Of a stretch of 35,085 nt of DNA, positions 14,398 through 15,322 are shown piece by piece (the stretch's first letter is position 1; every line of letters starts with the position of its first letter). This DNA is from Bacilli bacterium (GTDB taxonomy: Bacteria; Bacillota_I; Bacilli_A; RFN20; CAG-826). The notes beneath the pieces are model-generated. The model made no database searches, had not been told where the DNA came from, and saw only the letters and a program-made list of their open reading frames with translations. The stretch lies in assembly GCA_017940265.1 (NCBI GenBank), contig JAGAYY010000009.1, forward strand, positions 1 to 35,085, read 5' to 3'. The translations under genes were made by a program, and so were the position numbers.

Positions 14398-14419
14398 TTA
14401 TTCACAACTAGGAAAGAAG

Positions 14420-14441
14420 ACCGCTGAAAGGCGGTTTTTTT
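14420..14441 (+). terminator. Intrinsic terminator of rpsO
   Basis: ACCGC (14420-14424) and GCGGT (14431-14435) enclose TGAAAG and are followed by a run of seven T. It marks the end of the translation operon and the left edge of the small-gene island. Confidence 0.85.
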
Positions 14442-14466
14442 CTTTACTAAAAAATATGATTAGTGC

Positions 14467-14495
14467 TTAATAATTTGTATAAATTATGATATAAA
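14467..14495 (+). promoter_or_regulatory. Promoter of small-peptide locus A
   Basis: TTAATA (14467-14472), a 17-nt spacer and TATAAA (14490-14495). The predicted start at about 14502 coincides with the first base of the 32-nt block that is identical in locus B, which supports the placement. Confidence 0.6.
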
Positions 14496-14501
14496 AAATA
14501 T

Positions 14502-14561
14502 GACAAAGAAAAGTCATTAAAACTCGGAACGGACCTCGTAAATCTGAGCACAGAAACGAGG
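14502..14561 (+). promoter_or_regulatory. Locus A mRNA leader with SD-sequestering hairpin
   Basis: The first 32 nt (14502-14533) are identical to 14931-14962 of locus B. They are followed by the anti-SD arm CCTCGT (14534-14539), which pairs with ACGAGG (14556-14561), the SD region. The stem continues inside as TCTG-AGCA-CAGA. The leader segment 14527-14541 is also complementary to the mRNA 3' end (14693-14709: TTACGAGG, a GC bulge, TCCGTTC), so SD occlusion and 5'-3' pairing are mutually exclusive. Confidence 0.7.
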
Positions 14562-14570
14562 TGATGTCCA

Positions 14571-14660
14571 ATGAAAGACTTTTTCAAAGAGACCCTGTTT
14601 CTTTTGAAAATTGCCTTGATTTGTCTCTTCTTATCTTTACTAGCATTGCTTGTAAAATAA
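14571..14660 (+). CDS. 29-aa hydrophobic peptide, putative type I toxin (locus A)
   Basis: A 29-codon ORF starting MKDFFKETL and ending ALLVK, with one predicted membrane helix flanked by charged residues. It aligns without gaps to the 29-aa peptide of locus B and shares the core KxALICL, Leu-rich C-terminal half and final Lys. The SD (GAGGTG) lies about 6-8 nt upstream of the ATG but inside a hairpin. Conserved length and frame in two diverged copies, together with a convergent antisense promoter, support a real gene of the type I toxin kind (compare TisB, ZorO, Fst, TxpA in organisation, not in sequence). Toxicity is inferred, not shown. I do not recognise a named family. Confidence 0.75.
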   Translation: MKDFFKETLFLLKIALICLFLSLLALLVK

Positions 14661-14712
14661 AAGAGCCTCAATAGCTACCTAACCACAAGTGCTTACGAGG
14701 GCTCCGTTCTTC
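14652..14712 (-). ncRNA. Predicted antisense RNA opposing the 3' end of locus A
   Basis: Predicted to start near 14712 from the minus-strand promoter and end in the T-rich tract after the GAGCC/GGCTC hairpin, giving about 60 nt. It covers the 3' end of the peptide mRNA. Its 5' part reads GAACGGAGCCCTCGTAAG, essentially the same as the peptide mRNA's own leader (GAACGGACCTCGTAA), so it carries an anti-SD sequence and can bind the mRNA 3' end and possibly the SD. Confidence 0.65.
14663..14704. terminator. Bidirectional terminator-like hairpin of locus A
   Basis: GAGCC (14663-14667) and GGCTC (14700-14704), extended by TC/GA across a one-base bulge. On the minus strand it is followed by TTTTATTTT, a convincing terminator for the antisense RNA. 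On the plus strand it is followed by a weaker CGTTCTTCTGGTTT. The equivalent hairpin exists in locus B. Confidence 0.65.
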
Positions 14713-14718
14713 TGGTTT

Positions 14719-14746
14719 ATTATATCACAATATCTTCTTATGTAAA
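14719..14746 (-). promoter_or_regulatory. Antisense promoter of locus A
   Basis: On the minus strand, TTTACA (14746-14741), a 16-nt spacer and TATAAT (14724-14719). Near-consensus, with the -10 preceded by GTGA; locus B has the same boxes and spacing. Transcription runs toward the peptide gene. Confidence 0.8.
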
Positions 14747-14760
14747 TATAGTTGCAACAT

Positions 14761-14780
14761 GCCATAATCTATGGCTTTTC
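14761..14780 (+). terminator. Small hairpin with T tract downstream of locus A
   Basis: GCCAT (14761-14765) and ATGGC (14771-14775) followed by TTTTC. Weak, but locus B has a stronger hairpin/T-tract at the equivalent place beyond its antisense promoter, so it may stop read-through from the peptide transcript. Confidence 0.35.
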
Positions 14781-14801
14781 TGAAAAATAGTTATAGTCAA
14801 A

Positions 14802-14870
14802 CATCCCATATTTATATTTATCTATTAATAGATGAGTATATGTATACAAGCAAATATAAATATAGGGATG
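14802..14870. repeat. Long inverted repeat between the two small-peptide loci
   Basis: CATCCCATATTTATATTT (14802-14819) and AAATATAAATATAGGGATG (14852-14870) form an 18-bp stem with one bulged base. The 32-nt loop contains a perfect 12-bp palindrome TCTATTAATAGA (14821-14832). No ORF or promoter explains it. It could be a degenerate mobile-element end, a recombination or protein-binding site, or an untranslated structured RNA. Confidence 0.6.
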
Positions 14871-14894
14871 GTGGATAATGCCACAAAATAATCT

Positions 14895-14923
14895 TTGATT
14901 ATATCTAGATAAATCGTTAATAT
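14895..14923 (+). promoter_or_regulatory. Promoter of small-peptide locus B
   Basis: TTGATT (14895-14900), a 17-nt spacer and TAATAT (14918-14923). The predicted start at about 14931 is again the first base of the shared 32-nt block. Confidence 0.55.
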
Positions 14924-14930
14924 ATAACTC

Positions 14931-15010
14931 GACAAAGAAAAGTCATTAAAACTCGGAACGGAATACCTCCTAGACTATAAGGCTCACAAATGAAACTTAT
15001 AGAAAGGAGG
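14931..15010 (+). promoter_or_regulatory. Locus B mRNA leader with SD-sequestering hairpin
   Basis: The 32-nt block 14931-14962 is identical to that of locus A; beyond it the sequence differs but keeps the architecture. CCTCCT (14966-14971) pairs with the SD AGGAGG (15005-15010), and CTATAAG (14975-14981) pairs with CTTATAG (14996-15002), giving 13 bp around a short internal loop. GAACGGA (14956-14962) and CCTCCTA (14966-14972) are also complementary to the mRNA 3' end (15144-15150 and 15152-15158). Confidence 0.75.
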
Positions 15011-15017
15011 AAAGCAC

Positions 15018-15107
15018 ATGAAAGAAAATCTTACTGAAGTATTAAAGCTTCTTAAGATGGCCTTGATATGTCTCTTGCTTGGTTTGTTAATACACCTACT
15101 AAAATAA
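15018..15107 (+). CDS. 29-aa hydrophobic peptide, putative type I toxin (locus B)
   Basis: A 29-codon ORF starting MKENLTEVLKLL and ending LIHLLK, predicted to form one amphipathic to transmembrane helix. It has the same length as the locus A peptide and matches it at Met1, Lys2, Glu7, Leu9, Leu11-Leu12-Lys13, Ala15-Leu-Ile-Cys-Leu19 and the terminal Lys. A strong SD (AGGAGG, 15005-15010) sits 7 nt before the ATG but is buried in the leader hairpin. A paralog of locus A, probably from an old tandem duplication. Toxicity is inferred from organisation only. Confidence 0.78.
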   Translation: MKENLTEVLKLLKMALICLLLGLLIHLLK

Positions 15108-15162
15108 AAAGAGCCCTAGACTAATCCGCCAAGATAGTTTGTTTAGGAGGCTCCGTTCTTAT
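15100..15162 (-). ncRNA. Predicted antisense RNA opposing the 3' end of locus B
   Basis: Predicted start near 15162, end in the TTTTTATTTT tract after the GAGCC/GGCTC hairpin, about 60 nt. Its 5' part (AGAACGGAGCCTCCTAAAC) repeats the anti-SD segment of the locus B leader, with the bases specific to locus B. It is fully complementary to the 3' end of the peptide mRNA. Confidence 0.65.
15111..15153. terminator. Bidirectional terminator-like hairpin of locus B
   Basis: GAGCC (15111-15115) with GGCTC (15149-15153), extended inside by CTAGAC/GTTTAG (one G-T pair). A T-rich tract follows on the minus strand. It is the positional equivalent of 14663-14704, with a different inner sequence but kept pairing. 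Confidence 0.7.
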
Positions 15163-15168
15163 GGCTAC

Positions 15169-15196
15169 ATTATATCACGCTATTAGTCTGTGTAAA
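15169..15196 (-). promoter_or_regulatory. Antisense promoter of locus B
   Basis: Minus strand TTTACA (15196-15191), a 16-nt spacer and GTGATATAAT ending with TATAAT (15174-15169). The boxes and spacing are identical to locus A although the spacer sequence has diverged, which suggests selection on the promoter. Confidence 0.8.
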
Positions 15197-15206
15197 TATT
15201 GTTTTC

Positions 15207-15236
15207 AAAAGCTAAAAGCACAGCTTTTTTATTTTT
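15207..15236 (+). terminator. Intrinsic terminator downstream of locus B
   Basis: AAAAGCT (15207-15213) and AGCTTTT (15222-15228) with an 8-nt loop, followed by TTATTTTT. It separates the small-peptide island from the pnp promoter. Confidence 0.65.
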
Positions 15237-15260
15237 GTGACATTTTTTAACATTAAATGT

Positions 15261-15288
15261 TTAACAAAGTTAATGACTCTAGTATAAT
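15261..15288 (+). promoter_or_regulatory. Promoter of pnp with an overlapping palindrome
   Basis: TTAACA (15261-15266), a 16-nt spacer and TATAAT (15283-15288). An inverted repeat TTAACATT / AATGTTTAA (15247-15264, one base offset) overlaps the -35 box and could be an operator. Confidence 0.75.
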
Positions 15289-15322
15289 GACTAAGGTTAA
15301 ATTTTAAAAAAGAGGTAAAAAG

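Follow-up and report, generated by a model that had tools for sequence, protein, structure and literature searches.

The gap between rpsO and pnp (14398-15322) in a 35,085-nucleotide (nt) stretch from an uncultured Bacilli bacterium (GenBank assembly GCA_017940265.1, contig JAGAYY010000009.1; the whole stretch is referred to as the window) contains two homologous units, 14502-14725 (unit 1) and 14931-15175 (unit 2), each with a leader, a gene encoding a short hydrophobic peptide and a convergent promoter for a small antisense RNA. Comparison of these units with their relatives makes it probable that they are par-like chromosomal modules of type I toxin-antitoxin systems whose peptides form a new family, with an added pairing between the leader and the 3' tail of the same mRNA. 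This reading is carried by the conservation of the units, selection on the coding frame of the peptide, the complementarity between partners belonging to the same unit and the -10 element of the antisense promoter.

Organization of the units

An earlier note on this DNA, made from the sequence alone, had proposed a tandem pair of units between rpsO and pnp; both are present, but they measure ~225-245 nt, not the ~280 nt given there, and their starts are spaced 429 nt apart. Each unit runs from a 5' hairpin through a leader predicted to occlude the Shine-Dalgarno (SD) sequence to an open reading frame (ORF) for a hydrophobic peptide of 29 amino acids (aa), faced by a predicted convergent antisense RNA of ~55-58 nt. 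Both units open with GACAAAGAAAAGTCATTAAAACTCGGAACGGA, followed by the SD sequence and the 29-codon ORF, and the minus strand of both 3' regions reads as a TTTACA-16-TATAAT promoter followed by a short RNA and by a hairpin that ends in a U-tract. The leader repeat shared by the two units (43 nt) shows 88% identity.

In unit 1, the mRNA leader (14502-14570, plus strand) comprises the 5' hairpin GAC-AAAGAAAA-GTC (14502-14515), the conserved sequence AAAACTCGGAACGGA, the anti-SD CCTCGT (14534-14539) and the SD side ACGAGG (14556-14561). It is followed by the putative toxin gene (14571-14660, plus strand), which encodes the peptide MKDFFKETLFLLKIALICLFLSLLALLVK with the core KIALICL, and by the mRNA 3' tail ACGAGGGCTCCGTTC (14695-14709), whose sequence complements those of the leader and of the antisense 5' end. 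The putative antitoxin, a predicted minus-strand RNA of ~55 nt (14658-14712, ends placed from seven positions past the -10 to the U-tract), would be transcribed from the promoter at 14746..14719 (TTTACA-16-TATAAT, 11/12 matches, conserved -10). Unit 2 has a leader at 14931-15017 with the 5' hairpin (14931-14944), the anti-SD CCTCCT (14966-14971) and the SD side AGGAGG (15005-15010), a putative toxin gene at 15018-15107 encoding MKENLTEVLKLLKMALICLLLGLLIHLLK with the core KMALICL, and a 3' tail, AGGAGGCTCCGTTC (15145-15158), complementary to the leader, all on the plus strand; its putative antitoxin RNA of ~58 nt (15105-15162, minus strand, predicted ends) is preceded by a promoter of the same sequence, with 11/12 matches and a conserved -10, at 15196..15169. 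The 29-codon hydrophobic peptide genes with a KxALICL core and the near-consensus convergent antisense promoters agree with the earlier description, which had overlooked the 5' hairpin, the fact that leader and 3' tail of one mRNA are complementary and a third copy in the same genome (G000, contig C59, 9128-9202, minus strand).

Collection of units and the peptide family

Units were gathered by their leader. The first collection held 68 non-identical units, of which five (the second copy of L019, L022, L050, L052 and L070) have no ORF and 63 remain, and a wider pass gave 98 leader matches, reduced to 88 units of at least 270 nt by removal of seven short ones and of L161, L163 and L052; 83 of these have an anchor before the antisense -10 and form the anchored set, from which the other five were excluded. 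The partner-swap, SD-accessibility, leader-tail column, tail-block and CCTC/GAGG analyses are based on 58 units selected for an ORF, a tail and the antisense -10 pattern, with duplicates removed, the antisense -10 thus being an entry condition.

The 63 ORF-bearing units encode 60 distinct peptides, and the wider collection 77 (76 once an out-of-frame reading of L070 was removed), all of 25-29 aa; the frames of L139 and L189 are intact on reading, and L139 was omitted from the peptide counts. With a 15-aa hydropathy window, 77/77 distinct peptides score at least 1.6 and every peptide reaches at least 2.3. The ratio of nonsynonymous to synonymous substitution rates (dN/dS) in 30 disjoint pairs of equal length is 0.27 in frame versus 0.83 and 1.95 in the shifted frames (a first estimate from 23 pairs was 0.23), the substitutions by codon position number 159/93/237, and the shifted frames contain 254 and 78 stop codons versus 0 in frame, a pattern indicating that the peptide ORF is under purifying selection.

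Regarding known families, the claim that the peptides match none of them stands: searches at E up to 10 with the two window peptides and two relatives in PHROGs, NCBIfam, PADLOC and Pfam, and with 24 family members in Pfam, gave no significant profile match and no toxin family, the best values being 0.62 (YniD, NCBIfam) and 0.02 (CLLAC, a non-toxin family of Pfam). Solved structures returned two designed proteins only (E 7 and 8), and four peptide strings of the family were absent from the literature searched. Genome G162 (L165-L169) has eight diverged units, most with a hairpin loop one base longer, and several of their peptides are without the CL core, which suggests that the family extends beyond the search patterns used.

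Antisense promoter and RNA

The antisense -10 is an exact TATAAT in 76 of the 83 anchored units (shuffled mean 2.8, maximum 9), a count with a mild bias in that the anchor search halts once a good -10 is reached; when the anchor is disregarded, 81 of the 88 units have an exact TATAAT on the minus strand there. Promoter-like sites in the region of the two window units number 9 against a shuffle mean of 5.1 (standard deviation 2.1), a modest excess, and the real evidence for the promoters therefore lies in their conservation. The predicted antisense RNA is 52-66 nt long in 57/58 units and 80 nt in one, and its U-tract and its complementarity to the mRNA are conserved along with the -10. A further helix, b/b', joining the terminator loop to the stretch immediately before the antisense start, favors the partner from its own unit (z -7.6), and its longest stem is 5.66 versus 4.83 in shuffles (maximum 5.21), with a register that varies among units. 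Since the outer part of b/b' lies inside the antisense promoter region, the mRNA would run past the antisense start.

Pairing of leader, SD sequence and 3' tail

Among 41 leaders, 100% of cells are paired in helix 1 (the 5' hairpin), 93.7% in helix 2 (the SD hairpin) and 95.6% jointly. Of the three pairs in the 5' hairpin, the outer two are invariant and the middle one is A-U in 24 leaders, U-A in 16 and G-C in 1, and one further array unit has GAG..CTC. The covariation score of the leader helices is 0.359 versus 0.158 in shuffles, with 0/500 shuffles as high, and the percentage paired likewise tops all 500. The SD-occluding leader of the earlier note is borne out in silico, as the SD sequence in an mRNA ending at the stop codon has a predicted mean unpaired probability of 0.035 (58 units).

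When own partners were compared with swapped partners (41 representatives of <80% identity), own partners were favored for leader-SD (z -6.7), antisense 5' end-SD (z -4.2) and leader-3' tail (z -13.1), while controls within the ORF gave z +2.2 and -0.5. Complementarity next to the CCTC/GAGG motif was counted in 43/58 units, the other 15 having no exact CCTC/GAGG. At position 1 it was found for leader-SD in 43 (19.7 in shuffles), for leader-tail in 34 (18.1) and for antisense-SD in 33 (17.6), and at position 2 in 35 (29.4), 33 (24.0) and 30 (20.7), respectively. The antisense 5' end is complementary to the toxin initiation region via direct repeats, as is seen both in the swap test (z -4.2) and at these two positions (33/43 and 30/43).

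Pairing between the leader and the tail is found in 55-58 of the 58 units in each of the seven columns of GAACGGA, with compensatory types present, and departures are G-U in 10 cells versus A-C in 2. The eight units of G162 stand outside the 58; by eye, leader and tail are complementary at 7/7 positions in seven of them (one G-U among them) and at 6/7 in one, in part in other letters (GAATCGA with TCGATTC, GAATAGAG with CTCTATTC), and all eight have TATAAT on the minus strand. In predicted folds of the 58 units, which are thermodynamic, without pseudoknots, and in which a tail block mimics bound antisense RNA, the unpaired probability of the SD sequence is 0.158 with the unit's own tail, 0.032 with the tail blocked and 0.060 with the tails of other units, the full mRNA being more open than the blocked one in 54/58 units and than the swapped one in 48/58. 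Even in the predicted full-length mRNA, the SD sequence pairs with the leader (0.39) or the ORF (0.28) much of the time.

Distribution among genomes

Unit 1 DNA (14495-14667) has matches in 23/95 genomes, its own included (E <=0.001), the weakest of which (e.g., G087, G040 and G042) were rejected as units. A degenerate leader pattern was found in 43 stretches of named genome contigs (Bacilli, Bacillales and Erysipelotrichaceae bacteria), several of which are labeled as samples from the stomach of goat, yak, sheep, buffalo or deer, and had 0 matches in viral contigs. The leader covariance model R1, built on 41 sequences, has matches in 56/279 genomes of the order, including 13/16 of the own genus (G000 counted), the rest belonging to the own family except G077; in wider samples it matched 12/395 genomes of the class and 10/392 of the phylum, eight of each being identical genomes of the own family. 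The leader-model matches in G604, G077 and, within family f1, G232 lie inside coding sequence and were therefore read as chance. A peptide profile matched 6/296 class genomes at E <1e-6, all in family f1, and three fragments in other families, with E near 0.004 and hence at about chance level, were rejected. All accepted matches fall within one family of uncultured gut Bacilli. The check for homologues that the earlier note had called for turned out in its favor, with many related genomes, a frame under purifying selection and the antisense -10 kept.

Units form head-to-tail arrays, including one of six units (G155), and recur in chromosomal gaps, with up to 8 copies per genome (G162, all eight read). 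Unit 1 DNA had no match in plasmid and phage records, a search that covered this unit and not unit 2 or relatives, and the unit 1 peptide had none in plasmids; with the leader pattern unmatched in viral contigs, a viral, phage or plasmid origin was rejected. Membership in an Rfam family was likewise rejected, as none reached the gathering score and 14400-15300 came nowhere near it.

In family f23 of the same class (L161 and L163, each from 1501 on, and L201), a look-alike of the leader, GACAAAACAAAGTC-TTTAAAACTC, is followed by a 27-aa ORF (in L161 and L163 MKFLYxLFKTMADxLIICNVN..) and then by a strong terminator, with no clear antisense promoter by eye; this look-alike is either distantly related, perhaps, or a 5' element of a separate kind.

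Genomic neighbors, gain and loss

The rpsO-pnp gap of the window is located inside a core chromosomal stretch with nusA, infB, rbfA, truB, ribF, rpsO, pnp, RNase J and ftsK (Pfam). Between unit 2 and pnp there are an A+T-rich terminator-like hairpin (15207-15236, plus strand, AAAAGCT..AGCTTTTTTATTTTT; by eye, absent from scan output) and a separate pnp promoter (15261-15288, plus strand, TTAACA-16-TATAAT, 11/12). Between units 1 and 2 lies an A+T-rich palindromic element (14803-14872, CCCATATTTATATTT..AAATATAAATATAGGGATGG), and similar elements precede the unit after rpsO in G007 and G002; next to them comes a palindrome resembling AATAATCTTTGATTATT, inside which lies a -35-like TTGATT.

Units are present between rpsO and pnp in G000, G002, G007 (where another subtype stands in for unit 2) and G013, and in the recA-rny gap in 6 genomes (G002, G004, G006, G007, G009 and G013), a seventh (G014) having recA alone in reach. 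Units also occur near a class II aldolase gene in 8 genomes of the genus. RecA, RNase Y and the aldolase were each tested against Pfam on one protein, and the others were recognized by short N-terminal or internal strings. Units thus recur directly upstream of genes for RNA decay, RNase Y and PNPase (L019, L020, L022, L041, L043 and L050; L100, L101, L106 and L107), a placement that is possibly due to chance or possibly meaningful for the turnover of the antisense RNA. A gene starting MSKETIG.. or similar is often found ~15-35 nt past the approximate unit end (L006, L062, L068, L070, L075, L080, L088, L091, L093 and L159); the L080 copy encodes a helix-turn-helix protein (Pfam).

Seven relatives with rpsO and pnp nearby have no unit (L098, L102, L105, L110, L111, L112 and L114). 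At three sites (G008 rpsO-pnp, G002:C20 and G007:C27) the peptide gene is deleted or stopped and the antisense -10 is kept. In the first of these (L099) both peptide genes are gone and an orphan antisense unit with its -10 stays, as deletion between repeated copies of TTCTTTACTA and between those of AAAAGAGCC would explain. L070 appears frame-shifted, has no antisense -10 and was counted for neither side. In L156 (G008:C40) and L172 (G157:C34), which belong to different genera, the antisense part is replaced by partly shared sequence towards the contig end, perhaps, as a guess, the front of a ribosomal RNA operon.

Proposed mechanism

The transcripts and their ends, their differential stability, repression and toxicity are what we infer from these patterns, and the term toxin-antitoxin is to be read in the same way. 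The plus strand mRNA would encode a membrane peptide of 25-29 aa, probably toxic in excess; its small 5' hairpin should slow decay, and its SD sequence would be hidden by pairing with the upstream anti-SD. From the strong convergent promoter an antisense RNA of 52-66 nt, ending at the peptide stop codon, would be made that is fully complementary to the 3' end of the mRNA and carries a second anti-SD able to pair with the SD sequence of the mRNA. As long as this RNA is made, no peptide would be expected, and when its synthesis drops, the longer-lived mRNA would be translated. The leader, being a sense copy of the antisense 5' end, could in addition bind the 3' tail of the same mRNA (5'-3' closure).

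A more elaborate scheme, suggested by the predicted folds, is possible but distinctly tentative. The mRNA might mimic both partners, its leader acting as a copy of the antitoxin 5' end (an internal anti-SD) and its tail as a copy of the SD side and an activator of translation that pulls the anti-SD off the SD sequence; the antisense RNA would then capture the tail, and the freed leader would close the SD sequence.

Weight of the evidence and alternative explanations

Several points weigh against a par-like toxin-antitoxin module. The forward promoter that the earlier note assigned to each unit has a candidate by eye in unit 1 (14467-14495, plus strand, TTAATA at 14467-14472, 17 nt, TATAAA at 14490-14495), but it is weak and outside the promoter-scan criteria, and 46/88 units have a forward -10 with at least 5/6 matches, versus 31 in shuffles (maximum 42), so that it is weakly conserved. 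The bidirectional terminator described for the overlap of antisense RNA and mRNA is lopsided, with a good U-tract for the antisense RNA (TTTTATTTT) and a poor one for the mRNA; in the sense direction this shared terminator is weak, and the 3' end of the mRNA is putative. The leader columns themselves define the collection of units, and the two measures least prone to relatedness hardly differ from shuffles: pairs changed on both sides number 4 versus 3.3 (159/500 shuffles as high), and further pair types 13 versus 12.4 (234/500).

Regarding own-partner pairing, the swap controls on all 58 units gave +2.9 and -1.6 (p 0.05), the own partner has a median rank of 8th, 11th, 2nd and 10th of 41 for the four pairings, and positions 3 and 4 beside CCTC/GAGG are without clear excess, so that only two of the four positions show one. 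The antisense RNA of window unit 2 pairs equally with both SD sequences (-11.0 and -10.9), and within arrays an antisense RNA does not always favor the SD sequence of its unit. The swap test thus points to preference and not specificity; these ranks and the shuffled measures weaken a claim of specificity, and the units of G162 strengthen the leader-tail pairing. The peptide is also kept where the usual antisense promoter is absent, in G008:C40 and G157:C34 (near contig ends), G213 (L079, at a contig edge) and G000:C59, where the usual -10 is lost and TAAAAT is a possible substitute by eye; three sites of peptide loss versus these four establish no asymmetry by themselves, and contig ends cloud three of the four.

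Among other explanations, it is unlikely that the units encode a small non-toxic membrane peptide, such as a regulator or sensor, restrained by an antisense RNA with no poison involved. The peptide is conserved, its toxicity is putative, the neighbors read are chromosomal housekeeping genes and unit 1 DNA is unmatched in plasmid or phage records, all of which would fit such a role, but the tandem multiplication, the gain and loss at one site and the loss of the peptide with the antisense -10 kept suit an addiction module better. The chance that the peptides are divergent true members of the Fst/Ldr toxin family is slim: the putative convergent promoters, SD hairpin, 5' hairpin and direct repeats are organized alike, and the hydrophobic peptide of ~30 aa has a charged N-terminus, but PXXXG/C is present in 0/77 distinct peptides, no Pfam toxin family is matched, and the last seven positions have at most one acidic residue (76 peptides) and therefore no charged acidic tail.

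It is highly improbable that the unit is a functionless mobile repeat resembling a miniature inverted-repeat transposable element, with ends formed by the inverted repeat GAACGGA..TCCGTTC, since its multiple intergenic copies at different sites and its leader-tail inverted repeat are countered by purifying selection on the ORF, by leader-tail departures that are G-U (10) over A-C (2), by the head-to-tail arrays and by a leader pattern unmatched in viral contigs. That the units serve as cis-regulatory leaders for the gene that follows (pnp in this case, rny in others), as several genomes of the genus with units in the rpsO-pnp or recA-rny gaps in the orientation of the RNA-decay genes might suggest, is scarcely credible given the terminator-like hairpin and separate 11/12 promoter between unit 2 and pnp, the seven relatives with rpsO and pnp nearby but no unit, and the many other neighbors of units.

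If the par-like toxin-antitoxin reading is true, the type I systems of a group of uncultured gut Bacilli, in which genes of such length are easily overlooked, would gain a family of toxin peptides and perhaps a new logic of control. With up to eight diverged copies per genome, these units would serve as a natural experiment in the separation of sister toxins by antisense RNAs, and the RNA contacts can be tested directly through the paired sequence changes.

Comparison with known type I systems

The earlier note had likened the organization to that of type I toxin-antitoxin systems, naming txpA/RatA, bsrG/SR4 and the Fst par locus; the likeness is supported, with Fst par the right comparison among the three, and toxin-antitoxin function stays putative. 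In Bacillus subtilis, txpA/RatA and bsrG/SR4 combine a 3'-overlapping antisense RNA with a hydrophobic peptide, the peptides being different from those here and both peptides and antisense RNAs longer. The same holds for yonT/SR6 of that species, with a hydrophobic peptide of 58 aa and an SR6 of 100 nt. To our knowledge, no identity between leader and antisense RNA occurs in txpA/RatA, bsrG/SR4 or yonT/SR6. The kind of system is not itself new, as Firmicutes and Tenericutes have type I systems described before (PMC12390103). As far as searches show (the literature and PHROGs, NCBIfam, PADLOC and Pfam, with T1TAdb outside the comparison), the peptide family and the leader design are new.

The par locus is described as having convergent promoters, a bidirectional terminator, direct repeats and two leader hairpins, with an Fst toxin that needs PXXXG (PMC7472228). 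As in par of the Enterococcus faecalis plasmid pAD1 (fst, RNA I/RNA II) and in par-like loci of chromosomes, the predicted antisense RNA here overlaps the mRNA 3' end at the terminator, a direct repeat joins the SD region and the antisense 5' end, hairpins lie over the SD sequence and at the mRNA 5' end, the putative promoters are convergent, though the forward one is weakly conserved here, and the hydrophobic peptide has ~30 aa. Unlike par, the units have peptides without PXXXG and without an acidic tail, a terminator strong on one side only, a leader that repeats the antisense 5' end in sense orientation and at once complements the 3' tail of the mRNA, and a location in tandem arrays on the chromosomes of one uncultured family. 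With the repeats and hairpins present, the forward promoter and a symmetric terminator doubtful and the motif absent, the units are regarded as par-like in their working and are not filed as Fst.

In aapA, the 3' tail is an anti-SD that hides the SD sequence (PMC6733600). As in aapA/IsoA (Helicobacter) and hok/Sok, the ends of the toxin mRNA are complementary and an upstream anti-SD hairpin also hides the SD sequence (PMC6733600). Unlike that of aapA, the tail here is SD-like and pairs with the anti-SD of the leader, so that by predicted thermodynamics the SD sequence would open; sequestration of the SD sequence by the 3' tail in the manner of aapA/IsoA was not found in the predicted folds of the 58 units, where the SD sequence is more open with its own tail (0.158 versus 0.032). 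A tail acting as activator would thus be the reverse of the logic of hok and aapA, in which the tail closes the mRNA and 3' trimming opens it.

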